Assembly: GCA_903789635.1 (NCBI GenBank)
Contig: CAIFEY010000014.1
Location: 1-60,807, forward strand
Source of the DNA: an uncultured Eubacteriaceae bacterium
GTDB lineage: Bacteria > Bacillota > Clostridia > Peptostreptococcales > Anaerovoracaceae
Length of the DNA: 60,807 nucleotides
Reading direction: 5' to 3'
A program made the translations under genes and the position numbers. A model generated the notes under the pieces. That model was given only the letters and a program-made list of their open reading frames with translations, was not told where the DNA came from and ran no database searches. The number at the start of each line of letters is the position of its first letter. Within the stretch, counting starts at the first letter, position 1. Positions 3,210-30,759 of this stretch are shown here, piece after piece.

Positions 3210-3749
3210 ATGAAAAACAATAATGAAAATAAAGCAACTGTCGAATCCACCGCCACCGTCGCCGAATCGGCCGTCCTCGCGGACACGGCGTACATCGCGG
3301 ACGGGGCGCGCCTGGTCGGTCCGAACATCAGAATCGGTGAGCAGTCCAGCGTCTGGCCGAACGCGGTCCTGCGCTCGACCAGCTCCTCCATCGACATCGG
3401 CGACCGGAGCAACGTCCAGGACAACTGCGTCTTCCACGCCGAGGAGGGCAAGCCGATCCGCGTCGGGGACGGCGTGACCATCGGCCACAGCGCGATCATC
3501 CACGCCTGCACGATCGGCGACAACACACTGGTCGGCATGGGCGCGGTCGTGATGACCGGCTGCAAGGTAGGAAACAACTGCCTGATCGGCGCCGGCGCGC
3601 TCGTGACACAGGGAACCGAGATCCCGGACGGCATGATGGCGTTCGGAAGCCCGGCCAAGATCCGCCGCCCGCTGACCGAGGCCGAGATCCAGGACAACCG
3701 TGACGCGTCCCAGGAATATGTGGACGAAGCCACGGAATACCGCAGATAA
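3210..3749 (+). CDS. Gamma-class carbonic anhydrase family protein
   Basis: A 179-residue left-handed beta-helix protein built from hexapeptide repeats. The family has metal-binding histidines at the trimer interface; candidates are the H of VFHAEEG and the two in TIGHSAIIHACTIG. The products are either zinc or iron carbonic anhydrases interconverting CO2 and bicarbonate, or YrdA/PaaY-like homologues with weak or no activity, so the reaction is inferred. Length is typical. The ATG at 3210 follows AAAGGAG. The gene's last codons form the first copy of a 69-bp tandem repeat that continues downstream. Confidence 0.85.
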   Translation: MKNNNENKATVESTATVAESAVLADTAYIADGARLVGPNIRIGEQSSVWPNAVLRSTSSSIDIGDRSNVQDNCVFHAEEGKPIRVGDGVTIGHSAIIHACTIGDNTLVGMGAVVMTGCKVGNNCLIGAGALVTQGTEIPDGMMAFGSPAKIRRPLTEAEIQDNRDASQEYVDEATEYRR

Positions 3750-3890
3750 AGTAAAATCCGCAGGCAAGGGGAAACTTTGTCCGGGGAGGGCCGGCCGGCA
3801 GGCGAATACCGCAGGCAGGGAGAAACCCGCGGATGAGGGAAACTTTGCCTGGAAACGGCCTGGGAAACAGGGGAATGCCGCAGATCATGG
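3735..3890. repeat. 69-bp tandem repeat at and beyond the carbonic anhydrase stop
   Basis: GAATACCGCAG occurs at 3735 and 3804 and GAATGCCGCAG at 3873, a period of exactly 69. Each of the first two units also contains a CCGC(A/G)G block followed by GGGRAACTTTG. The third unit is partial. The period is a multiple of three, so one forward frame reads as 23-residue repeats. That frame has no ribosome binding site and is not the carbonic anhydrase frame. Confidence 0.75.
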
Positions 3891-3959
3891 TGACAAAACA
3901 TAAGGTTTGCGGTAAAATATCATGGATAATGTATAACATGAACCAAGGAGTATTCATCA

Positions 3960-5048
3960 ATGGGAGAGAAAATCATTCTTACGGGCGATCGTCCGACCGG
4001 AAAGCTGCACATCGGTCACTATGTCGGATCGCTCCGCAATCGTGTCGAGCTCCAGAATTCCGGAGAATACGATAAAATTTACATCATGATCGCGGATTCG
4101 CAGGCGCTGACGGACAATTTCGACAATCCGTCCAAGATCCACGACAACCTCCTTCAGGTTGCCCTGGACGACCTCGCAGCAGGCCTGGATCCGGAGAAGA
4201 TGACGCTGTTCATCCAGTCTGAGGTATCCGAGCTGACGGAGATGACCTTTTATTTCATGAACTTAGTCACCCTGTCCCGTCTCGAGAGAAACCCGACGGT
4301 CAAGAGCGAGATCCAGCTCAGGGGATTCAACAACAGCATCCCGGTCGGCTTCCTGAACTACCCGGTCAGCCAGACGTCCGACATCGTCGCGTTCAAGGCG
4401 ACCACCGTTCCGGTCGGAGAGGACCAGGAGCCGATGCTGGAGCAGGCGAGGGAGATCGTCCGCCGCTTTAACATGATCTACGGAGAGACACTGGTCGAGC
4501 CTGAGATCATGCTGTCCAGCAATAAGGCGAGCATGCGCCTGCCGGGCACGGACGGAAAGAATAAGATGAGCAAGTCCATCGGAAACTGCATCTACCTGGC
4601 CGACGATCCGGACACGATCCGTGAGAAGGTCATGTCCATGTACACCGACCCGGACCACCTGCGCGTGGAGGACCCGGGAAAGATTGAGGGAAACACCGTA
4701 TTTACCTATCTTGACGCGTTCTGCAAGCCGGAGTACTTCCAGGCATTCCTGCCGGAGTACGAGGACCTGGACGCCCTGAAGGCGCACTACAAGCGCGGCG
4801 GACTGGGTGACGTCAAGGTCAAGCGTTTCCTGAACGAGGTGATGCAGGAGACCCTGCGTCCGATCAGAGAGAGAAGAGAAGATTTATCGCATAACCTGGA
4901 CTACGTGTTCCAGGTGCTGAAGGACGGCACGGTAGCCGCCCGCGAGGTTGCCGCACAGACCATGGATGAGATGAAGACGGCCATGAAGATCAATTACTTC
5001 AAGGACGCATCCTTCCTGGACGACTTCCGTGAGAAGAACAACCTGTAG
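3960..5048 (+). CDS. trpS: Tryptophan--tRNA ligase
   Basis: A 362-residue class I aminoacyl-tRNA synthetase that charges tRNA-Trp. The Rossmann catalytic domain starts with GDRPTGKLHIGHYVGSL (HIGH signature as HIGH near residue 17). The KMSKS loop is present unchanged in KNKMSKSIGN near residue 200. Size is typical of the bacterial enzyme plus a short C-terminal extension. The ATG at 3960 is preceded by AAGGAG. No T-box leader fits in the short space between the upstream repeat and the start. It is followed by purC after about 150 bp. Confidence 0.95.
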   Translation: MGEKIILTGDRPTGKLHIGHYVGSLRNRVELQNSGEYDKIYIMIADSQALTDNFDNPSKIHDNLLQVALDDLAAGLDPEKMTLFIQSEVSELTEMTFYFMNLVTLSRLERNPTVKSEIQLRGFNNSIPVGFLNYPVSQTSDIVAFKATTVPVGEDQEPMLEQAREIVRRFNMIYGETLVEPEIMLSSNKASMRLPGTDGKNKMSKSIGNCIYLADDPDTIREKVMSMYTDPDHLRVEDPGKIEGNTVFTYLDAFCKPEYFQAFLPEYEDLDALKAHYKRGGLGDVKVKRFLNEVMQETLRPIRERREDLSHNLDYVFQVLKDGTVAAREVAAQTMDEMKTAMKINYFKDASFLDDFREKNNL

Positions 5049-5201
5049 CTGACGGGGGGACGTCAGGCAGGGCCGCAGCAGGGGCTGCGGCGGTCACGGA
5101 AAACCAACATCGATCACACGCCGCGGGAGTCTTCTTAAATTCTCCTGCGGCTGATGATACAGCCTATTACATCAGTGGATTAGAGCAGGAGGCAGAATAG
5201 C
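5049..5201 (+). other. trpS-purC spacer with two hairpins
   Basis: CCGCAGC and GCTGCGG flank AGGG near 5080. A second inverted repeat, CCGCGGGAG with CTCCTGCGG, spans about 5123-5153. Neither is followed by a T run, so they are not clear terminators. They could belong to the purC leader. No purine riboswitch signature was recognised. Confidence 0.4.
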
Positions 5202-6074
5202 ATGAAGGAGTTTACACCGGTAAAGGCAGGAAAAGTCAGAGAGATCTACGACAACGGCGACAGCCTGATTATGGTTGCCACAGACCGCATTTCCGCATTT
5301 GACCATATTTTAAAGAACAAGATCGTCGGAAAGGGCAAGATCCTGACCCAGATGTCCAAGTTCTGGTTTGATTACACCAAGGACATCGTACCGAACGACC
5401 TGATTTCCATCGACGTCAAGGACATGCCGGAATTCTTCCAGACGGAGGAGTTCGAGGGCAGGAGCACGATGTGCCAGAAGCTGGAGATGCTGCCGATCGA
5501 GTGTATCGTCAGGGGCTACATCACCGGATCCGGATGGGCGAGCTACCAGGAGACCGGCAAGGTCTGCGGAATCGAGCTCCCGGAGGGACTGCAGGAATCC
5601 CAGCAGCTGCCTGAGCCGATCTTCACGCCGAGCACCAAGGCTGAGCTGGGCGACCACGACGAGAACATCTCCTACGAGCAGTGCATCGAGGTCCTGGAGA
5701 AGGAGTACCCGGGCAAGGGCGAGCAGTACGCCAAGGCGATCCGCGACAACACGATCGCGCTGTATAAGAAGTGCGCGGAGTACGCGAGAGAGCACGGCAT
5801 CATCATCGCGGACACCAAGTTCGAGTTCGGACTGGACAAGGACGGCAATGTCGTCATCGGCGACGAGATGCTGACCCCGGACAGCTCGCGTTTCTGGCCG
5901 CTCGAGGGCTACGAGGCAGGCAAGTCCCAGCCGTCCTACGACAAGCAGTTCGTCAGAGACTGGCTGAAGGCCAACCCGGACAGCGACTACAACCTCCCGC
6001 AGGACGTCATCGACAAGACCATCGCCAAGTACGAGGAGGCGTTCGAGAAGCTGACCGGCCACAAGGTTCAGTAG
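5202..6074 (+). CDS. purC: Phosphoribosylaminoimidazole-succinocarboxamide synthase
   Basis: A 290-residue SAICAR synthetase that joins CAIR and aspartate with ATP in step 8 of IMP synthesis, in the cytoplasm. The N-terminal KAGKVREIYD and ATDRISAFD motifs, the central VRGYITGSGWASYQ motif and IADTKFEFGLD near residue 205 are family hallmarks. Length fits the long (about 290) bacterial subtype. The ATG at 5202 follows AGGAGGCAGAATAGC. No other purine gene is adjacent; a strong terminator at 6157-6204 ends the unit. Confidence 0.95.
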   Translation: MKEFTPVKAGKVREIYDNGDSLIMVATDRISAFDHILKNKIVGKGKILTQMSKFWFDYTKDIVPNDLISIDVKDMPEFFQTEEFEGRSTMCQKLEMLPIECIVRGYITGSGWASYQETGKVCGIELPEGLQESQQLPEPIFTPSTKAELGDHDENISYEQCIEVLEKEYPGKGEQYAKAIRDNTIALYKKCAEYAREHGIIIADTKFEFGLDKDGNVVIGDEMLTPDSSRFWPLEGYEAGKSQPSYDKQFVRDWLKANPDSDYNLPQDVIDKTIAKYEEAFEKLTGHKVQ

Positions 6075-6156
6075 CTTCCCGGGATCCGTCCGTATTGTCC
6101 GTATTGATGGATCCGTTCGATTCGGCCGTTTCGGCTGATTAGACAAAGTACACAGG

Positions 6157-6204
6157 GACCGACAGGATGACCGCAGCTGCGGCGTTCTGCCGGTTCTTTT
6201 TTTA
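6157..6204 (+). terminator. Rho-independent terminator after purC
   Basis: ACCGACAG...CTGCCGGT encloses an inner CCGCAGCTGCGG hairpin, followed by a seven-T run. Confidence 0.85.
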
Positions 6205-6229
6205 TTTTGCCTAAAACCTACCGTTAAAC

Positions 6230-6240
6230 TTGTTATAATC
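6230..6240 (+). promoter_or_regulatory. Extended -10 promoter upstream of the Rrf2 regulator
   Basis: TTGTTATAAT contains TATAAT with a TG extension and no good -35. It lies about 175 bp before the regulator start, leaving a long AT-rich leader where an autoregulatory site could lie. Confidence 0.4.
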
Positions 6241-6410
6241 CCAGCAGTATGGTATATTTAAGGTAATAATAAGATAATATTGAGGCATCTATATACTTAA
6301 CATATTTTACTTCATTATTTTCGGCGGACCTCGCTTCTGCGGGGGCGCGGAAACCAAGGGATTGTAACGAGAAGAGAATAAAATCGATTCGATAGGAAGG
6401 CGGTCATCAA

Positions 6411-6848
6411 ATGGCAATGAAGATTTCAACCAAGGGACGCTATGCACTGCGCGTCCTGATCGATCTGGCAGAGCAGGATTCCGGGGAATACACGCCGCTT
6501 CGCGAGATTGCGGCGCGCCAGGGGATCAGTGAGAAATATCTGGAGAGCATCATCGTCGTATTTTCCAAGGCGGGGATCGTCTCCGGCCACAGGGGGAAGG
6601 GCGGCGGATACCGCCTGGCCAAGGATCCGGACAGCATCACCGTGGGCGACGTCCTGCGCGAGGTCGAGGGAGACCTTGCTCCGGTCGCCTGTTTAGAGGG
6701 CGGCGGACAGCCGTGCGAGCGCGCGGCAGACTGCAAGACCCTGCCGATGTGGGAGAAGTTTTACAACATGACGAACGAGTACTTCGACGGCATCACGGTC
6801 GGCGACCTCGCGAACCGCGGGGACGAGGGCGACTTCTACGTGATCTAG
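6411..6848 (+). CDS. Rrf2 family transcriptional regulator (IscR/CymR type)
   Basis: A 145-residue winged-helix repressor. The N-terminal helix-turn-helix spans about residues 1-75, with the family sequence MKISTKGRYALRVLIDLA and the wing GHRGKGGGYRLA. Three cysteines in CLEGGGQPCERAADC at residues 92-106 match the spacing used by IscR-like members to bind a 2Fe-2S cluster; CymR-type relatives instead sense cysteine status through CysK. The next gene is cysK, whose promoter overlaps an inverted repeat, so control of cysteine or Fe-S synthesis is a reasonable inference. The first ATG at 6411 is used; an in-frame ATG at 6417 is an alternative. Confidence 0.88.
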   Translation: MAMKISTKGRYALRVLIDLAEQDSGEYTPLREIAARQGISEKYLESIIVVFSKAGIVSGHRGKGGGYRLAKDPDSITVGDVLREVEGDLAPVACLEGGGQPCERAADCKTLPMWEKFYNMTNEYFDGITVGDLANRGDEGDFYVI

Positions 6849-6927
6849 TCAGGAGCTGCCAGGTAAGGCCGGCCCGCGCGGAGAGCCCGGACGGCAGGAT
6901 GCTGCAAAATTTAAAATGTGAAATTCC

Positions 6928-6969
6928 GAGAGGGGCTGCAACAAAGGCGGCCTCTCTTTTATTGTTTTT
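6928..6969 (+). terminator. Terminator after the Rrf2 gene
   Basis: GAGAGG...CCTCTC hairpin with an inner GGCTGC/GCGGCC pairing, followed by TTTTATTGTTTTT. Confidence 0.7.
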
Positions 6970-7189
6970 GCCTGCCGCTGCTTCCGTGGGTCATCAGGGT
7001 TCATCGGGACTCACCAGGTTCGTCGGGGTTCGGCGGGTTTGTCGGGAGTTGGCGGCGATCGCCTGTTTTCGGCCCGGGAAAGGCTGCACATCAGGGGCGG
7101 TTTGTGGGCTTGGGCGTGGATTTTGTCTGAGGGGCATGAACGGGGGCAGGAGAATTATGGAGGGGAAACAAAAAAAAGTTTAATAAAAA

Positions 7190-7231
7190 CCTATAAACAC
7201 TATTGACATACAGGATTTATAGGAATATAAT
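7190..7231 (+). promoter_or_regulatory. Consensus promoter of cysK overlapped by an inverted repeat
   Basis: TTGACA (7203-7208) and TATAAT (7226-7231) are separated by exactly 17 bases, a perfect sigma-A promoter. CCTATAAA (7190-7197) and its exact complement TTTATAGG (7216-7223) flank the -35 and enter the spacer, where a bound repressor would block RNA polymerase. The nearby Rrf2 regulator is the natural candidate, by inference. The 120-nt leader to cysK shows no riboswitch I recognise. Confidence 0.8.
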
Positions 7232-7351
7232 TCAATCAACATACAGGAAATGTGTGTTTTACATCGTTTCTAAGGTGTATCAATAATTCAGATTAATAAA
7301 TTAGAGATTAATTTTTAGGGTATTTACAATCATTGTGGAGGATCAATCATT

Positions 7352-8284
7352 ATGGCTAAGATTTACACATCAGCGGATCAGCTCATCGGACACACACCTT
7401 TACTGGAGCTCACACACCTCGAGAAGGCACATGGCCTGAAGGCCAAGATTGTCGCTAAGCTGGAGTACTTCAACCCGTCCGGATCGGTTAAGGACAGAAT
7501 CGCCAAGGCGATGCTCGACGACGCTGAGGAGAAGGGCCTGCTGAAGGCTGACACAGAGATCATCGAGCCGACATCCGGAAACACAGGAATCGGACTCGCA
7601 GCAGTTGCGGCAGCAAGAGGCTACAGCCTGACCATCGTAATGCCGGAGACGATGAGCATCGAGAGAAGAAAGCTGATGAAGGCTTATGGTGCCAAGCTTG
7701 TCCTGACAGACGGCGCTCAGGGAATGAAGGGCGCGATCGCTAAGGCGGACGAGCTGCACGAGCAGAATCCGAACAGCTTCATCCCGGGACAGTTCGTAAA
7801 CCCGGCAAACCCGAAGGCGCACAAGGAGACAACAGGTCCGGAGATCTGGGAGGATACGGACGGGAATGTCGACTTCTTCGTCGCTGGAGTTGGTACAGGC
7901 GGAACACTGACTGGAGTCGGCGAGTTCCTGAAGTCCAAGAATCCGGACGTCAAGATCGTAGCCGTAGAGCCTGCTTCTTCCCCGGTACTGTCCGAGGGAC
8001 ACGGCGGACCGCATAAGATTCAGGGAATCGGCGCAGGATTCGTTCCTGACACACTGGACACCAAGATCTACGATGAGGTCATCCCTGTAGAGAACGATGA
8101 CGCGTTCGAGGTCGGCCGCGAGATCGGCCACAGAGACGGCGCTCTGGTCGGAATTTCCGCCGGTGCTGCTGTCTGGGCAGGCATCGAGCTGGCTAAGAGA
8201 CCGGAGAACGAGGGCAAGACAATCGTCGTACTGCTGCCGGATACCGGAGACAGATACCTGTCCACACCGCTCTTCGAAGAGTAA
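7352..8284 (+). CDS. cysK: Cysteine synthase A (O-acetylserine sulfhydrylase)
   Basis: A 310-residue PLP enzyme that makes cysteine from O-acetylserine and sulfide. The PLP lysine is in [11 protein letters not shown] near residue 45, the substrate loop is [11 protein letters not shown], and the phosphate-binding loop is [10 protein letters not shown] near residue 180. Length is typical. The ATG at 7352 follows TGGAGGATCAATCATT. It is monocistronic, between its own consensus promoter and a terminator at 8460. Codon use is less GC-rich at third positions than most neighbours, consistent with high expression. With the desulfurase and mnmA further on it forms a sulfur-supply neighbourhood. Confidence 0.95.
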
Positions 8285-22117: not shown

Positions 22118-22295
22118 AGCAGTTTTTCGGGTCTGTGGTTGAAAGTCCATGGCAGATACGGTCGAAAGGATCCACGTAAACCGTACGCAAGGCGGCGGCG
22201 AGCATGGCGTATCCTAGGTGTAAGTCCTCGGAAAAATTCCGGTAAAGGCAAGTGTGGGGGCAAAGACCAGGTCAGCCGAAGAACTGCTATTTTTG
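22118..22295 (+). ncRNA. Structured RNA upstream of hpf, candidate raiA-motif RNA
   Basis: The ends pair: 22118-22129 (AGCAGTTTTTCG) with 22277-22288 (CGAAGAACTGCT), 12 bp with one wobble, followed at once by ATTTTTG. The RNA therefore has its own promoter, a closing helix and a terminator-like end, about 178 nt in all. No reading frame with a ribosome binding site lies inside. Bacillota and Actinobacteria carry the raiA-motif RNA of about this size just before raiA/hpf, and hpf starts at 22603. Identity is inferred from position, size and architecture; I could not match the covariance model. It also contains GAAAGTCCATG, recalling the conserved box of RNase P RNA, but the rest is too short for that. 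Confidence 0.65.
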
Positions 22296-22602: not shown

Positions 22603-23139
22603 ATGAAATATAACATCACAGGTAAGAACTACAAAACATATCGCCGCTTGGAAGAGCAGATCGAGAAGAAATTCGACCGTCTCGACAAGTACTTCAGCGA
22701 GGACAATACGGCCAACATCGTACTGTCCCATGAGAGAGGAAAGGATAAGATCGAGGTAACAATCAACGCACAGGGCGCTTTATTCCGTGCAGAGGAAGTC
22801 ACGGACGATATTTACGAAGGCATTGACCGGGCTGTCGACAAGCTGACCAGCCAGATCAAGCGCTTTAAAGGAAAACTGCAGAAGAGATACCAGGACAACA
22901 AGGCTCTGAAGTTCGAGTTCATGGAAGATGAGCCGATCGAAGACGAGGAGCCGGAGCAGCTGTCCGTCGTCAGGGAGAAGACCTTCGACCTGCGTCCGAT
23001 GGACGTTGAGGAGGCGATCCTGGAGATGGAGATGCTGGAGCATGACTTCTTCGTATTCATGAACAGCGCAACCGACAGCGTCAACGTCGTATACCGCAGA
23101 AAAGGCGGAAAGTACGGACTCCTGTCTCCGCAGTATTAA
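22603..23139 (+). CDS. hpf: Long-form ribosome hibernation promoting factor
   Basis: A 178-residue protein with an N-terminal S30AE/YfiA ribosome-binding domain (about 1-100, with basic DKLTSQIKRFKGKLQ) and a C-terminal dimerisation domain (about 120-178, VVREKTFDLRPMDVEEAILEM and FRRKGGKYGLLSP-like end). Long HPF silences 70S ribosomes in stationary phase by forming 100S dimers. The ATG at 22603 follows AAAGGAGGC. The RNA at 22118-22295 and the structured leader immediately upstream make this a heavily regulated locus. Confidence 0.95.
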   Translation: MKYNITGKNYKTYRRLEEQIEKKFDRLDKYFSEDNTANIVLSHERGKDKIEVTINAQGALFRAEEVTDDIYEGIDRAVDKLTSQIKRFKGKLQKRYQDNKALKFEFMEDEPIEDEEPEQLSVVREKTFDLRPMDVEEAILEMEMLEHDFFVFMNSATDSVNVVYRRKGGKYGLLSPQY

Positions 23140-23331: not shown

Positions 23332-23468
23332 GATTCATGCGAGGGGCATGGAAGCGTGTAAGGGGTGCGTATATTGAGGGAAATCCGGTTTTGTGATAAA
23401 TTATATGAAGAAGAAAAATGTCACAACGACTGGAAAGGAGCACGCGCACTGCGTGTGTTGATACAATT

Positions 23469-24905
23469 ATGGGAAAATATTTTGGTACAGACGGATTCCG
23501 TGGGGAAGCAAACATCGATTTAACTTCTGATCACGCATATAAGGTAGGACGTTTTCTGGGATGGTATTTCGGAGAACTCAGGAGAAGAGAGGGGTACGAG
23601 GACGACGGCGTATTCGAGTACAGCTGGAGAGGAGCTGACGAGAAGAAGCCGAGGATCGTCATCGGAAAGGACACCCGCCGCTCCAGCTACATGATCGAGT
23701 ATGCGCTGATCGCCGGCATGGTCGCGTCCGGGGCGGACGCGTACACGATGCACGTCACGACGACGCCGTCTGTCGCATATATTACCAGGACGGAGGAGTT
23801 CGACTGCGGCGTCATGATCACCGCCTCGCACAACCCGTTCTACGACAACGGCATCAAGGTGCTGAACAGAAACGGACAGAAGATGGAGGAGGAGACGATC
23901 GACCTGATCGAGGCGTACCTGGACGGCCATCTGGAAGTCTTTGGAAAGAAATACGACGAGCTGCCTTTTGCTGAAAAAGGAGGCATCGGCAGAGCCGTCG
24001 ACTACATTGCCGGCAGGAACCGCTACATCGGCTACCTGATCTCCCTGGGAATGTATTCTCTGCGTGGGAAGAGGATCGGCCTCGACTGCGCGAACGGCTC
24101 GTCCTGGAGCATCGCCCAGTCGGTGTTCGAGGCGCTGGGTGCCCGCACGTACGTCATCAACAACGAGCCTGACGGAACGAACATCAACAGGAATGCAGGA
24201 TCCACACATATCGAGGGACTGCAGAAATTCGTCTGCGACAATCATCTGGACTGCGGATTCGCCTACGACGGCGACGCGGACCGGTGCCTGGCGGTCGACG
24301 AGAACGGAGACCTGGTTGACGGAGACAAGATCATGTACATCTACGGACGCTACATGAAGGAGAGAGGAAAGCTGCTGACCAACACGGTCGTTACGACGGT
24401 AATGTCCAACTACGGACTGTACAAGGCGTTCGACGAGATCGACGTCGACTACGTCAAGACCCCGGTCGGCGATAAAAACGTATACGCATATATGGCGGAA
24501 CACAGATGCCGCATCGGCGGTGAGCAGTCCGGCCACATTATATTTTCCAAGTACACGACGACCGGAGACGGCATCCTGACCAGCCTCAAGCTGATGCAGG
24601 TCATGATGGATAAGAAGAAGCCGCTGAGTGAGCTCGCCGCACCGGTCAAGATCTACCCGCAGAAGCTGATCAACGTCCGCGTGAAGGACAAGGAGGCGGC
24701 GCAGCACGACGAGGCGCTCACCAAGCGCGCGGCGGAGATCGATCAGGAGCTGGGAAAGAGCAAGCAGGGAAGGGTGCTCGTGAGGGCGTCCGGAACGGAG
24801 CCTCTGATCCGTGTCATGGTTGAGGCAGAGACGATGGATGTCGCCGCGTCTTATGCCGAGGAACTCGTGAATGTATTGAAGCAGCGCGGCCTTACGGCGG
24901 AGTAA
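23469..24905 (+). CDS. glmM: Phosphoglucosamine mutase family phosphohexomutase
   Basis: A 478-residue alpha-D-phosphohexomutase. It starts with MGKYFGTDGFRGEAN as GlmM does. The phosphoserine loop is MITASHNPFYDNG near residue 120, the metal site DGDADR near residue 274, the sugar loop GGEQSGH, and the phosphate site RASGTEPLIRV. It interconverts glucosamine-6-phosphate and glucosamine-1-phosphate for UDP-GlcNAc; glmS lies 7 kb on and cdaA/cdaR between, supporting GlmM over phosphomannomutase. It is slightly longer than usual GlmM (about 450). The ATG at 23469 lacks a close ribosome binding site (GGAAAGGAG is 28 bp upstream); an in-frame ATG at 23418 would add 17 unconserved residues. Confidence 0.85.
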   Translation: MGKYFGTDGFRGEANIDLTSDHAYKVGRFLGWYFGELRRREGYEDDGVFEYSWRGADEKKPRIVIGKDTRRSSYMIEYALIAGMVASGADAYTMHVTTTPSVAYITRTEEFDCGVMITASHNPFYDNGIKVLNRNGQKMEEETIDLIEAYLDGHLEVFGKKYDELPFAEKGGIGRAVDYIAGRNRYIGYLISLGMYSLRGKRIGLDCANGSSWSIAQSVFEALGARTYVINNEPDGTNINRNAGSTHIEGLQKFVCDNHLDCGFAYDGDADRCLAVDENGDLVDGDKIMYIYGRYMKERGKLLTNTVVTTVMSNYGLYKAFDEIDVDYVKTPVGDKNVYAYMAEHRCRIGGEQSGHIIFSKYTTTGDGILTSLKLMQVMMDKKKPLSELAAPVKIYPQKLINVRVKDKEAAQHDEALTKRAAEIDQELGKSKQGRVLVRASGTEPLIRVMVEAETMDVAASYAEELVNVLKQRGLTAE

Positions 24906-24959
24906 CTGCAGCAGGAGCGTCTGCATGCCGCATCGGGGAGCATTCCCGACTCGGAACGA

Positions 24960-27146
24960 ATGAACTTAACACCCTATAGATATGCGATATGCGAATTGAG
25001 AGAGACGGCCATGGATATTGAGCTTAATCAACGAGAACTGCACCAGTATTACGACAAGGTTGAGGGCGGAATCTGCCTGTTTTCCACGGACATGAAGGAG
25101 AGAATCCTCTTCATCAGCGACGGAATACGGGAGCTTTACGAATGTGAGACGGAGGAGGGGTTCTACGCCAGGACGGGCGGAACCTTCCGGGGGATGGTCA
25201 GCGAGGAGGATTATGTCTCGCTGGATGAACTCTTTGTCTCCGAGGCGGAGAACAAGAAGGGCTACCGCGCGATAAGGTTCAGCTTTTACAACAAGAAGAA
25301 TGAACTCAAGCACCTCGAGGGCGCGTTTAGGCACATGGAGGTCCCGAACTACGGGCTCGTCTGGATCATGCACCTGGTCCCGCAGGAAGAGTGGAACTGG
25401 GCACTGAAGTCGGACGACCTGACGGGATTCCTGAGCATGCACGAGCTGCTCCTTCTGATCAAGAAGAAAATAGAGAGTGCTAAGGACCCGCTGGCAGTCA
25501 CCGATTACTGCACGGTATACTTTAACATTGCCAATTTCAAGGAGTATAACCGTTCCGAGGGAATCCGAGCGGGAGACCGGTGCCTGGAGAAGACGGCAGA
25601 GGTCATCCGCAAGGTGTTCCCGGACATGGCGTTCGCGCACGTTTCCGCGGACGGGTTCGCCGGCCTGGTGGAGACGGAGAATGTCTTTGCCGACGCCGAG
25701 CATGTCTGCAGTGAGATGAATGCATATATCGGCAACCCGAGCGTCATGATGAAGAGCGGAATCTGCTTCATGGAGGGAGAAGGAACCATGGAGGCCGTCC
25801 GCTACGCCTTCGACATGGCAAAGATCGCGTGTGACACGATCAAGCGTGACGTCAGGAAGGACTACGCGGTATACACGGAGCAGATCGGCCGTTCTCTCGA
25901 GATGCGCATGTACATCCTGAAGAACTTCAACCGGGCGCTGGAGGAAGGCCACATTCAGGTCTACTTCCAGCCGGTTATCCGGACGCTGTCGGGCAAGGTC
26001 TGCGGACTGGAGGCCCTGGCGCGGTGGAACGACCCGGAGATGGGCATGATCTCGCCGGGAACCTTCGTCCCTGTCCTGGAGGACGCGCGCCTGATCGACA
26101 GGCTGGACCAGTTCATGATCCAGAGCGTCGGAAAGATTCTGGGCGATCAGAAGAAGAACGGCGTGCCGATGCTCCCGATCTCCTTCAACCTGTCCAGGCT
26201 GGACTTCGACCTGATGAACCCAGTTGAGATCGTCGAGCGGACCGTGGAGGAAAACGACATCCCGCGTTCCTTTATGAGGATCGAGGTCACGGAGTCTGCG
26301 CTGGTGCACGACCAGTTCCACCTGATGGACATGCTGTCCCGCCTGCACGAGATCGGCTACCAGGTCTGGCTGGACGACTTCGGCAGCGCCTATTCCTCGC
26401 TGAATGTCCTGCACAACTACCACTTCGACGAGATGAAGATCGACATGGCCTTCTTCCGCAACTTCAACACGACGGGGAAGAAGATCATCGAGGGAATCAT
26501 CCTGATGGCCAAGACGCTGGGCGTGCACACGCTGGCGGAGGGCGTCGAGGACGAGGCGCAGGCTGAATTTCTGAAGAATGTAGGATGTGAGAAGATTCAG
26601 GGCTACTGCTACTGCAGGCCGATGCCGCTCGAGGACATGTACCGCCACTTTAAGGAGACCGGCATGGAGATGGAGACGCGCCGCGAGGAGACGGTCTTTG
26701 ATGAAGCGGGTCTGCTCAATATGCTTTCAGAAACCCCGACGGCGGTTGTCGTCTACGACGGCGAGTACGCCCAGATCCTCAACGCGAACCACGCTTACAT
26801 GAACACGCTGCACACGGTCGGAACGACCAGGCTCGCACAGGCGAATCACACGCTGCGCGACCCGAACAACATGACGATGCTGCGCAAGTTCAAGACCATG
26901 ATCGATAAGATGATCATGGCGGAAGATGAGGAGGACCGCAAGACATCCTTCACTTATGTCGACCGCGGTGAGTACCTGCGTCTGAATGCGAGGCTGGTCA
27001 CCGGCCTGGAGGGGATCTGGATCTTCCGCGTGGAGCTGTACAACATCACGGCGGACCACGATATCCAGGACTCCCGAACGATGGACAAGGTGCTCCGGAA
27101 CATCCTGGCGGACTTCCAGGGCATTTACTACATGAACTACGACTAG
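24960..27146 (+). CDS. Sensor, degenerate GGDEF and EAL protein (5' part of a TAG-interrupted gene)
   Basis: The 728 residues hold an N-terminal PAS-like domain (about 20-140), a GGDEF-like domain (about 150-300) whose signature is reduced to SADGF and so is probably inactive, and an EAL phosphodiesterase domain (about 320-570). The EAL catalytic residues are kept: QPV, LEALARW, EVTES, WLDDFGSAYSS, KIDMAF, AEGVED and QGY. It should degrade c-di-GMP. A second PAS-like domain (about 580-700) follows, and then a new domain begins (ILADFQGIYYMNYD) and is cut by TAG at 27144-27146. The next codons continue in the same frame and complete that domain. The first ATG has a poor ribosome binding site; 25011 is an alternative start. 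Confidence 0.8.
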   Translation: MNLTPYRYAICELRETAMDIELNQRELHQYYDKVEGGICLFSTDMKERILFISDGIRELYECETEEGFYARTGGTFRGMVSEEDYVSLDELFVSEAENKKGYRAIRFSFYNKKNELKHLEGAFRHMEVPNYGLVWIMHLVPQEEWNWALKSDDLTGFLSMHELLLLIKKKIESAKDPLAVTDYCTVYFNIANFKEYNRSEGIRAGDRCLEKTAEVIRKVFPDMAFAHVSADGFAGLVETENVFADAEHVCSEMNAYIGNPSVMMKSGICFMEGEGTMEAVRYAFDMAKIACDTIKRDVRKDYAVYTEQIGRSLEMRMYILKNFNRALEEGHIQVYFQPVIRTLSGKVCGLEALARWNDPEMGMISPGTFVPVLEDARLIDRLDQFMIQSVGKILGDQKKNGVPMLPISFNLSRLDFDLMNPVEIVERTVEENDIPRSFMRIEVTESALVHDQFHLMDMLSRLHEIGYQVWLDDFGSAYSSLNVLHNYHFDEMKIDMAFFRNFNTTGKKIIEGIILMAKTLGVHTLAEGVEDEAQAEFLKNVGCEKIQGYCYCRPMPLEDMYRHFKETGMEMETRREETVFDEAGLLNMLSETPTAVVVYDGEYAQILNANHAYMNTLHTVGTTRLAQANHTLRDPNNMTMLRKFKTMIDKMIMAEDEEDRKTSFTYVDRGEYLRLNARLVTGLEGIWIFRVELYNITADHDIQDSRTMDKVLRNILADFQGIYYMNYD
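27144..27146 (+). other. In-frame TAG separating two halves of one signalling gene
   Basis: The flanking frames are the same. Upstream reads YYMNYD, downstream DYVKLLM, together making the YY-N-D-Y start of a common PAS-like sensor domain. There is no ribosome binding site for the downstream part. TAG is an ordinary stop in this window (purC, pepD and others end with it), so a nonsense mutation, a sequencing error or readthrough are the options. Confidence 0.8.
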
Positions 27147-27152
27147 GACTAC

Positions 27153-29771
27153 GTGAAGCTTCTGATGACGATGATCTCCGACCTGGATGTCGGGCAGCAG
27201 CTGGACGGCATCGCGGAGACGATCCGGAAATATGCGAAACGATACATCTACAGCGGAGACCGGGAGCGGTTCATGATCTTCGCGGACCAGGAACGGCTCT
27301 ACGCGCAGGCGGCCAGGACCAGGCGCGGCGCAGCTGCATCGCTGTTCCGTGTGAAGCAGAGGAACGGGGACTACAACTGGTGCGTATTCAACGTGCAGAT
27401 CCCGTATAAGAATAAGGAAAAGGCACTTCTGGTCAGCGTCAGGGATGTCATCAGCGAATATACGGAAGGCTGGGACGAGCAGTTTTCAGAATTTGCAGCT
27501 TCGTACGGCTATTTTCTGTCGACGAAAAAAGACGTCAAAGAAGAGTACGCGGACGATATCCTGCAGGCGATCTGCCAGCAGTCCGACCTCAAGATGTACT
27601 GGAAGGACACCGACCGGCGCATCCGCGGCATGACCGACGCGTTCTACCAGTACTTCGGATTCCCTAACGACTCGGAACTGATCGGAAGGACAGACGAGGA
27701 GATCGGCTGGTTCATCGACAGTGCACAGCCGCGCCGCACGGAAGATGCCGTTCTGACAAAGGGTGAAATTTCCAGAGACGAGTACGTGCAGTGCCTGGTC
27801 GGAGGAAGGCCGCGCCGCTTCCCGATGACGCGGTTCCCGGTTTACCACGGAAATAAGATCCAGGGGCTGATCGGATACTTCCGGGACGACGCGGATGACG
27901 CGAAGGCCAGGCAGGCCAGGCTGGTCGACCCGCAGACCGGACTCCTGAACTACGAGGGCGCGATGATCGCGGGCGTGCAGTTCAGCGATAACTTCCGCGC
28001 GCACGGGGAGGACTACGTCGGCGTCCTGATGGAGGTTGCCGAGTACGAATTCCTGAAGTCCTCCTACGGCGAGGTCGTGGGGAACAAGCTGCTGAAGAAG
28101 ATCACGGAGATCATCCTGGATGAGTCCGGCTGCACCGGTGCCGTGGGAAGGATCGGCAGCTGCTGCTTCGTCCTCTTCCGCAAGTATCAGGATACGGAGG
28201 AAGTGTACCGAAGGCTGAAAGAGATTGCAGACAAAGTTCGCGCGATCAAGGAGATCGAGGGATACAGCTGCACGATGTACCTGCAGTACTCCGTCGTCTG
28301 GAGCCGTGAGGTCAGAAGCATAGACGAGATGATCGCACTGATGAAGGAGCGTCTGACCGACGCCGGGCGCAATCACTACGGCGAGTCGACCTACACCGGA
28401 GACCGCATCGTATTCGAGCGCGAGAAGTTCGACACGATGCCGGAGAACGTCGTGATGTCGGACCCGGAGACGCACGAGCTGGTCTATATGAACGAGTCGG
28501 CCAAGAAGGCGCTGTCCCTGCCGATGGACTTCTCCTGCTCGGGCAAGAAATGCTACCAGGTGCTCGAGGGCATGGAAAATCCTTGCACGAACTGCAATGC
28601 GGCGGAGCTTAAGCGCAGCCGCTTCGCATCACGTTTCCATCACTGCAGGATGATGTCCACAGACCAGATGGTCCGCGACACGATGGTGACGTGGAAGGGC
28701 AAGGAGCTCCGTTTCTCGATGAGCTTCAACATCCAGGACTACATCAACATGGATGTCGAGGCGAACCGCGTCCTGTTCCAGGAGGCGGAGGTCAACGACA
28801 CGATCGCCGTGGGAATGCGGGAGCAGGACCCGAATATCGGCATCAATAAGATGATCAAGAAGGTCGGAAGCAGCCTGGACGCGGCACGCGTGCTGCTGTT
28901 CGAGCCGCGCGAGGACGGAAGACTCCGCTGCACCTACGAGTGGAATGCGGAGGGGCAGGTCCCGGCGATCGACCGCCTGAAGGACGTCTCGATCAGGGAA
29001 GTCCTGCCGTTCCACAAGCAGTTCTCCGTGCATCCGGTCATCATGATCCAGGACTGGGAGGAATGGACGGTTGCTTCAGGATGGGACAACCGCAACTTCG
29101 TGCTCAACGGCGCGGATAACGTTATCTCCGGCCACATGGTGATGTCGGGCAACACGGTAGGCTACACACTGATGATCGGCGCCAACGAGCGTGCGTTCAG
29201 TTCCGGCAGGAACCTGCTGCTGACGCTGCTGCGCTTCCTCGCGATCATGCTCAGGAATCGTGACACGATCAAGACGCTGCAGCAGTCCGGAAGCAAGGAT
29301 ATCATGACCGGCGCGGGAAACCGAAGGGCGTTCCTGCAGAAGATCGAGGACATGCCGGACGGAAAGACCTTAACCTTCGTCTTCGGCGACGTCAACGGCC
29401 TGAAGAGGATGAACGACGTGGAGGGACACCTGGCGGGCGACCGCCTGCTCCAGGATGCTTCCGGCGTCATGCTCCGTAGGGGAGACGCGGAGCACGTCTT
29501 CCGCATGGGAGGAGACGAGTTCCTGTATCTCGCGGAGAATACCGATGAAGAGCACGCGAGGAGGCTGATGAAGGATCTCCGCCGAGACTACGACCGCGAG
29601 AAGATCAGCATGGCGTTAGGATGCGTCACGGTCAGGACGCCGATCGAGAACATCGACGAGGTGCTGATGGATGTCGACAGCGAGATGTACCTCGATAAGG
29701 AGAAGCAGAAACAGGTCCGCCGCCGGAAGACCGGTGAAGAGGGAATGGCAAAAGAAAAACAGCAGTTCTAA
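27153..29771 (+). CDS. Multi-sensor diguanylate cyclase (3' part of a TAG-interrupted gene)
   Basis: The 872 residues are in the same frame as the preceding gene. The first ~100 complete the sensor domain begun before the TAG. Then come another PAS-like domain (about 140-250), a degenerate GGDEF-like domain (about 265-400; the signature is replaced by RIGSCCF), a PAS domain with a cysteine pair region (KCYQVLEGMENPCTNC, about 430-530), a GAF-like domain (about 545-690), and a C-terminal GGDEF domain with intact FRMGGDEFLYL near residue 785, probably an active c-di-GMP synthase. The GTG at 27153 has no ribosome binding site, so independent translation is doubtful. The whole locus would encode about 1,600 residues. 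Confidence 0.75.
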   Translation: MKLLMTMISDLDVGQQLDGIAETIRKYAKRYIYSGDRERFMIFADQERLYAQAARTRRGAAASLFRVKQRNGDYNWCVFNVQIPYKNKEKALLVSVRDVISEYTEGWDEQFSEFAASYGYFLSTKKDVKEEYADDILQAICQQSDLKMYWKDTDRRIRGMTDAFYQYFGFPNDSELIGRTDEEIGWFIDSAQPRRTEDAVLTKGEISRDEYVQCLVGGRPRRFPMTRFPVYHGNKIQGLIGYFRDDADDAKARQARLVDPQTGLLNYEGAMIAGVQFSDNFRAHGEDYVGVLMEVAEYEFLKSSYGEVVGNKLLKKITEIILDESGCTGAVGRIGSCCFVLFRKYQDTEEVYRRLKEIADKVRAIKEIEGYSCTMYLQYSVVWSREVRSIDEMIALMKERLTDAGRNHYGESTYTGDRIVFEREKFDTMPENVVMSDPETHELVYMNESAKKALSLPMDFSCSGKKCYQVLEGMENPCTNCNAAELKRSRFASRFHHCRMMSTDQMVRDTMVTWKGKELRFSMSFNIQDYINMDVEANRVLFQEAEVNDTIAVGMREQDPNIGINKMIKKVGSSLDAARVLLFEPREDGRLRCTYEWNAEGQVPAIDRLKDVSIREVLPFHKQFSVHPVIMIQDWEEWTVASGWDNRNFVLNGADNVISGHMVMSGNTVGYTLMIGANERAFSSGRNLLLTLLRFLAIMLRNRDTIKTLQQSGSKDIMTGAGNRRAFLQKIEDMPDGKTLTFVFGDVNGLKRMNDVEGHLAGDRLLQDASGVMLRRGDAEHVFRMGGDEFLYLAENTDEEHARRLMKDLRRDYDREKISMALGCVTVRTPIENIDEVLMDVDSEMYLDKEKQKQVRRRKTGEEGMAKEKQQF

Positions 29772-29840
29772 CGGCTGTATTGATTAAGGAAAAATAAAGG
29801 AAAAATAATAGATGAAAGCGGGATCGGGAAGCTGCACGCC

Positions 29841-29869
29841 TTGAATAAATAATGTTTATCTTGTAAAAT
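29841..29869 (+). promoter_or_regulatory. Promoter of cdaA-cdaR
   Basis: TTGAAT (29841-29846), 17 bases, TAAAAT (29864-29869), 33 bp before the cdaA start. Confidence 0.65.
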
Positions 29870-29901
29870 AGGATAGATATCTTGGAAGGAAAGGAGCAGT
29901 G

Positions 29902-30759
29902 ATGAAGGACTATATTTTGACGCTTATATCGAGTATCCGGATCAATGATGTCCTGGATATCCTGATCACCGCTTTTGTCATATATAAAATACTTGGATTC
30001 ATCAAACAGACCAGGGCTCAGCAGCTGGTAAAGGGACTGCTGATCATCGTCGTCGCGTACTTCGCGTCGGACATCCTGGGTCTGAATACGATCAACTGGC
30101 TGCTGAAGGGGCTGTTCACGTTCGGGCTGTTCGCCATCGTGGTCATCTTCCAGCCGGAACTCAGGCGAGGGCTGGAGTTCATGGGACGCAGCAAGTTCGC
30201 GGTCGGGCCGATCTCACAGCTCGATTCGGAGAAAGCCAAGTATATTGTCGATGAAATATCCAGCGCGGCGGGTGAGTTTTCTCAGAGCAGAACCGGCGCG
30301 CTTATTGTATTTGAACGGGAAATCGCGCTCGACGACATTGCGGAGTCGGGCACGCGGCTGAACGCGGAGATCAGCGCGCAGCTCCTGGGGAACATCTTCT
30401 ACGAGGGCGCGCCGCTTCACGACGGGGCGGTGATCATCAGGAGCGACCAGATCTACGCTGCCGGGTGTGTTTTGCCGCTGACGGAGAACAAGAACCTGAA
30501 CAAGAGCCTCGGGACCAGGCACAGGGCAGGGATCGGCGTGAGTGAGCGCTCGGACGCCCTCGTGCTGATCGTCAGCGAGGAGACAGGAATCATCTCTGTC
30601 GCGGAGGACGGACGCCTGCGCCGCTTCCTGGATGAGAAAGACGTGGAGAAGATTTTGCTCGGCATGTATCTGACCGGAAAGGATGAGGATCACTCCTTCA
30701 AGTTCAGCAAGATCTTTGAGCGCCTGAAGAAAGGAAGTGACCACAAGAATGCTGAATAG
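29902..30759 (+). CDS. cdaA: Diadenylate cyclase CdaA
   Basis: A 285-residue membrane enzyme that makes c-di-AMP from two ATP. Three N-terminal membrane helices (about 10-80) precede a DisA_N domain with the hallmarks GAPLHDGAVII and LGTRHRAGIG, then SEETGIISVA. c-di-AMP controls potassium, osmotic balance and wall homeostasis. The ATG at 29902 follows AAGGAG by five bases; a GTG at 29899 is an alternative. cdaR overlaps the stop by 11 bp. The order glmM-(c-di-GMP gene)-cdaA-cdaR-glmS resembles the classic cdaA-cdaR-glmM locus with glmM displaced. Confidence 0.95.
   Translation: MKDYILTLISSIRINDVLDILITAFVIYKILGFIKQTRAQQLVKGLLIIVVAYFASDILGLNTINWLLKGLFTFGLFAIVVIFQPELRRGLEFMGRSKFAVGPISQLDSEKAKYIVDEISSAAGEFSQSRTGALIVFEREIALDDIAESGTRLNAEISAQLLGNIFYEGAPLHDGAVIIRSDQIYAAGCVLPLTENKNLNKSLGTRHRAGIGVSERSDALVLIVSEETGIISVAEDGRLRRFLDEKDVEKILLGMYLTGKDEDHSFKFSKIFERLKKGSDHKNAE

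Follow-up and report, generated by a model that had tools for sequence, protein, structure and literature searches.

Interrupted cyclase genes have been described in Shigella flexneri, where dgcE, dgcQ and dgcN are reported to carry nonsense mutations ahead of the GGDEF domain and still to give c-di-GMP (PMC11327459). In the same study, expression of the Shigella dgcM and dgcQ genes gave two proteins each, which match the stop codon and an adjacent methionine, and its authors find the multiple proteins consistent with the use of multiple start codons (PMC11327459). More generally, bacterial in-frame stops with dN/dS below 1 are reported in another study as widespread, tending to short persistence and to the scale of population polymorphism (PMC7918605).

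The gene considered here lies in a stretch of DNA of 60,807 nucleotides, hereafter the window. It is similar to the Shigella flexneri dgcE, dgcQ and dgcN genes in having a break before an intact GGDEF domain, start codons nearby and an intact cyclase part; however, c-di-GMP was measured in Shigella, whereas the window gene is known from sequence alone (PMC11327459). A further difference is the presence of an EAL domain with an intact signature upstream of the stop, in what would have been the same ancestral chain. Like the in-frame-stop genes of the second study, it has a lone in-frame TAG within an otherwise coding frame (PMC7918605). In this bifunctional c-di-GMP gene, a single codon has undone the link between hydrolase and synthase, both of which look intact.

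Layout of the interrupted gene and its homologues

Two long frames on the plus strand, 24960-27146 (728 aa) and 27153-29771 (872 aa from its GTG, or 874 codons counted from the TAG), share a common phase, with one TAG between them. Such an arrangement had been proposed in the sequence-only reading, and the frame coordinates are confirmed: the gap consists of the TAG (27144-27146) and the codons GAC TAC alone. Third-position GC content is 0.827 in the upstream and 0.828 in the downstream half; the latter terminates with TAA at 29769-29771, and an alternative start of the former, picked by coding score, is perhaps ATG 25011.

The upstream half (24960-27146, ending in TAG) begins with an N-terminal region, followed by a degenerate GGDEF domain with the motif SADGF (25410-25772) and an EAL phosphodiesterase domain (25923-26621; PF00563, E = 3.8e-58), in which the signature residues EAL, N, E, DDFG, K, E and Q are aligned with those of the solved EAL structure 4rni. 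After these come PAS-like region 1 (26712-27044, read by eye from the homologue alignment, with approximate limits) and the first part of PAS-like domain 2, which extends across the stop (27057-27455, limits likewise approximate and profile support weak). The downstream half (27147-29771) comprises the rest of PAS-like domain 2, a PAS_4-like region below cut-off, a degenerate GGDEF domain with the motif GSCCF (27924-28370), a PAS_8 domain matched at its cut-off, and a C-terminal GGDEF domain with an intact GGDEF motif (29298-29711; PF00990, E = 1.1e-23); all of these features lie on the plus strand. An intact active-site motif is thus confined to the last of the three GGDEF domains, the other two being degenerate, and the I-site RxxD is absent from it at the position given by alignment to 4urs. 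Which EAL and GGDEF residues are catalytic is our own presumption. The EAL and the intact GGDEF domain therefore stand on separate open chains, with the TAG between the two domains.

Protein searches covered 61 genomes and one named collection, and a search of 393 genomes of the order with an 11-row profile built on the junction (A1) gave 27 places in 10 genomes, the window counted in. The other 26 places and the named records L031-L033 were aligned at the TAG column (11 of these rows had built the profile), with exclusion of L042, a paralogue that ends ahead of this column. A sense codon occupies the column in all 29 aligned homologues, with the same outcome in a first round of 21, and none of the 29 is broken, begins or ends there. 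Single chains of 877 to 1606 aa span the junction, and a consistent two-gene arrangement with a conserved break, the finding that would have spoken for two genes, is not what the homologues present, as 29/29 run through. Since all 29 have a sense codon at the TAG column, the split of the gene is, as judged from this alignment, derived.

One named example shows both likeness and difference. L031 of [Eubacterium] cellulosolvens LD2006, a frame of 1153 aa, has the same EAL/PAS-like order, and its residues 39-729 align with upstream residues 31-726 (34% identity) and its residues 755-1126 with downstream residues 21-386; in contrast to the window gene, it is uninterrupted and ends before the C-terminal PAS-GGDEF module. 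Because single-chain relatives align in this way to one half after the other, the continuity of the two frames across the TAG is, on the alignments, not a product of chance. The relatives found share at most about 40% identity over long stretches, and the search for an orthologue that has this stop too was negative among them.

The claim that the stop falls within one PAS-like domain is backed by the continuity of the homologues, while profile recognition of this domain is weak. TIGR00229 matches with E = 7.4e-4, below its cut-off, over profile positions 61-116 of 126, all past the stop; PAS_3 was matched in 2 of 12 homologues; Pfam gave zero matches for 27057-27455 translated with the TAG as a residue; and in a solved-structure profile search with the alignment of PAS-like domain 2 nothing was significant (best E = 0.052). 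The PAS identity of this domain is thus weakly supported. Judged from sequence, a turn close to its start seems to hold the TAG column, and the homologues have varied, mostly polar residues there (E, D, N, K, R, Q, T, S).

Related chains end at several points. The 733-aa, TAG-terminated paralogue L042 of the same genome ends after PAS-like region 1, with no homologous sequence seen past its stop; L138, L139 and L043 end after PAS-like domain 2; others, e.g. L031, L037, L038, L039 and L041, end after the degenerate GGDEF domain; and an extra C-terminal GGDEF domain is carried by chains in G007 (1503 aa), G304 (1466 aa) and G036 (L044). The upstream half resembles a short form occurring alone and is likely functional. 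L042 apparently has its natural end close to where the TAG cuts the window gene, which suggests that the upstream half is a working phosphodiesterase. In-frame stops in G362 (C12) and G348 (C31) were considered as marks of further broken copies and rejected: nothing homologous lies beyond them, and the chains end just after PAS-like domain 2, which we take as their natural ends. Separately, L044 (G036:C31, another genus) is frameshifted within EAL, with overlapping frames 3314-4519 and 4429-7644 that are out of phase.

Decoding of TAG and translation of the downstream half

Release factor 1 (prfA) gave a match above cut-off and is intact; stops flagged in this match and in a second release-factor match were discounted, both sitting at match ends. 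The anticodon CUA occurs in none of the 50 detected tRNAs, a set that is incomplete (it is without tRNA-Ile), such that a missed tRNA is possible, and a search of the genome for PylS gave zero matches. Among 348 called genes in a 493-kb sample the terminators are TAG in 150, TAA in 167 and TGA in 31, the TAG count taking in both TAG-interrupted EAL frames. Recoding of TAG was rejected on the combination of intact RF1, no CUA tRNA in 50, absence of PylS and the frequent use of TAG as a terminator. Read-through of the TAG as a special feature, one of the two alternatives in the sequence-only reading, finds no support in the same observations, nor in the occurrence of TAA and TGA breaks elsewhere in the genome.

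It had also been stated that the downstream part has no ribosome binding site, which is a fair description. The first possible reinitiation codon, GTG at 27153-27155, lies 6 nt past the stop, and the duplex energy before it (-3.9 kcal/mol) is at background: of 3048 internal start-type codons 35% do as well, as do 75% of 185 longest-ORF starts, themselves unverified. ATG codons follow at 18 and 24 nt after the TAG. Within 150 codons past the stop there are seven start-type codons in frame, and the best SD-like pairing among them (-7.0) belongs to ATG 27273-27275; it is matched by 8% of internal codons, and for an internal start at this ATG, which was considered, the pairing is slightly better than at the GTG but not above chance.

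Stops would be created by 313 of 7866 single substitutions (4.0%) in the downstream half, and in a model with no selection and equal rates there is a 95% chance of a second stop after about 75 substitutions (2.9% of sites). No second stop is present in the downstream half. Because the frame remains open for 2.6 kb, we take it that either the gene was broken recently or selection still acts on the downstream part; continued expression would fit the absence of a further stop too.

Interrupted genes in the genome and explanations for the break

Three of the six EAL genes in the genome are interrupted: the window gene by TAG, a gene on contig C27 by TAG and a gene on C19 by TAA and a frameshift. 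The C27 paralogue (L135) has its TAG at C27:20689-20691 on the minus strand, inside the same PAS-like domain and at another column than the window TAG, and 65 in-frame codons past it carry on the domain. The C19 gene (L175), a membrane sensor with degenerate GGDEF and EAL domains, is broken by an in-frame TAA plus a frameshift, and a single-chain homologue of 638 aa (L193 in G010) aligns to all three of its pieces. No break was seen in the other three EAL genes (on C46, on C24 and the C27 copy L042), the one on C24 having been viewed without comparison to relatives.

A background was obtained from 20 stretches of 20 kb chosen by coordinate, with about 288 genes, in a screen to which frameshifts are invisible. 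It held one in-gene stop, an in-frame TGA in a PTS EIIA-EIIB-EIIC gene (G000:C5, L151, 13684-13686, minus strand), where the stop separates EIIB profile positions 2-27 from positions 28-88. In-phase coding extensions scoring at least 15 after stops numbered 24 in the sample screen, of which by eye, and as a matter of judgement, 21 are adjacent genes or noise and 3 are in-gene breaks, namely the window TAG, the C27 TAG and the PTS TGA. A Fisher test of 3/6 interrupted EAL genes against 1/about 288 gives p = 1.9e-5, and leaving out the flagged window gene (2/5) gives 7e-4; these figures are rough, as the EAL genes were inspected more closely than the sample and two of them are paralogues. Since TAG, TAA and TGA all occur among the breaks, nonsense mutation under relaxed selection is indicated, and a TAG-specific device is not needed. 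As a separate observation, two genes at G000:C8 (L154, 3150-5024 and 7827-9701, minus strand) have equal length, the same C-terminal residues and the same next-gene residues after the stop; by eye, and over the residues compared, this resembles a duplication of an iron-sulfur protein operon.

Our best reading, which we consider quite probable, is that a c-di-GMP gene once coding for a single chain was hit by a nonsense mutation, within a genome whose EAL genes are being interrupted. The ancestral chain would have consisted of a sensor region, a degenerate GGDEF domain, EAL, PAS-like repeats, a degenerate GGDEF domain, PAS and GGDEF, and would have been cut by a nonsense substitution to TAG in the second PAS-like domain, at a position that varies among homologues. 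The upstream half would then be made as an EAL protein of roughly 730 residues, probably still hydrolysing c-di-GMP, given that this genome also has a paralogue whose chain stops after that PAS-like region. The GGDEF half would be silent, or a low-rate product of reinitiation at GTG 27153, of a later internal start or of near-cognate misreading of UAG, and the broader cause may be relaxed selection on EAL genes in the lineage. This supports the first alternative of the sequence-only reading, that an EAL half with an intact signature was severed from a GGDEF half with an intact motif, the grounds being a derived stop and sense codons in 29/29; that their separation would change the direction of c-di-GMP control is plausible. 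With half of the genome's EAL genes interrupted, the mechanism would be ordinary gene decay, and automatic annotation may show two normal genes at the window locus.

The main rival, which we regard as distinctly unlikely, holds that the TAG at 27144-27146 arose through an error of sequencing or assembly, or stems from a minor-strain (segregating) variant, and that the real gene is intact. This would agree with a genome in 77 contigs, with a downstream frame open to its end and with a PTS gene that likewise has a lone in-frame TGA; however, interruptions cluster in EAL genes (3/6 vs 1/about 288), and the coincidence of a TAA and a frameshift in the C19 gene is not favoured by random base errors. 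It is also possible, if on the whole rather unlikely, that the locus now works as two genes, with termination at the TAG coupled to reinitiation at GTG 27153 or nearby and with separate EAL and GGDEF proteins at useful levels. The nearness of the GTG (6 nt) and of two ATG codons (18 and 24 nt), and a cyclase half that keeps its motif and open frame, are consistent with this, as are the two proteins each from the Shigella dgcM and dgcQ and the continued c-di-GMP production with dgcE, dgcQ and dgcN (PMC11327459). On the other hand, SD pairing at GTG 27153 is at background, the second PAS-like domain would be split, and 0 aligned homologues start at this point. Reinitiated and leaky outcomes overlap with the nonsense-mutation reading, which leaves the rate of GGDEF-half synthesis unset, and are not exclusive of it. 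If the cyclase half is still made, the gene would offer a test, set up by nature, of whether cyclase genes with such breaks keep working outside Shigella.

That the TAG serves regulation, being decoded often enough to yield a full-length bifunctional chain beside a short phosphodiesterase, seems to us very improbable. Its position tolerates many residues, a second EAL paralogue carries a TAG within that PAS-like domain too and its frame goes on for 65 codons, and in-frame stops with dN/dS below 1 are reported as widespread in bacteria (PMC7918605); the same study has such stops as mostly short-lived and on the scale of population polymorphism (PMC7918605), and against decoding stand also the intact RF1, the lack of a detected CUA tRNA and of PylS, the frequency of TAG as a terminator, the breaks by TAA and TGA, and the different columns of the two TAGs. 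Against the nonsense-mutation reading it can be said that 2/3 interrupted EAL genes have TAG in the same PAS-like domain and that L042 is TAG-terminated, a pattern that would also come from a TAG-specific mechanism. The extension of this idea to the lineage, in which amber codons in the second PAS-like domain of EAL proteins, carried by two paralogues, act as a leaky switch, is in our estimation highly improbable; were it true, termination would give a short phosphodiesterase and occasional read-through a longer chain with other outputs, so that termination efficiency would tune c-di-GMP. Practically negligible is the chance that these are two ordinary genes, separate all along, as might be read from the two-frame layout with a start codon just past the stop and from the C-terminal PAS-GGDEF module standing alone in G036 (a 451-aa frame): the chain is continuous through the TAG column in 29/29 homologues, and the standalone module aligns only from downstream residue 425 onward. 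A natural two-gene pair was rejected on the homologue alignment.

Genomic setting

The window gene lies between a glmM-like gene (23418-24905) and cdaA-cdaR-glmS, where cdaR is a name we presume from gene position, an NCBIfam search for it having given zero matches. A cdaA match is present in 15 further genomes of the genus, and neither half was matched in the flanks searched there, which reach upstream for about 1.5 kb in 13 of the genomes, for 0.7 kb in another and hardly at all in the last. hpf is directly upstream of cdaA in G004 and G014 and separated from it by 0.77 kb in G012; in G007 no hpf match was found within 7.3 kb upstream of cdaA. Because neither half was matched in these flanks and hpf adjoins cdaA in G004 and G014, the glmM-like and c-di-GMP genes (window 23418-30759) appear to have been inserted between hpf and cdaA in this lineage specifically, as would fit an accessory gene under weak selection.

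In several species, glmM is only 38-41% identical and lies downstream of cdaR. A raiA RNA (RF03072, 135.7 bits) was located at window positions 22122-22284, upstream of the hpf/raiA gene (22603-23139).
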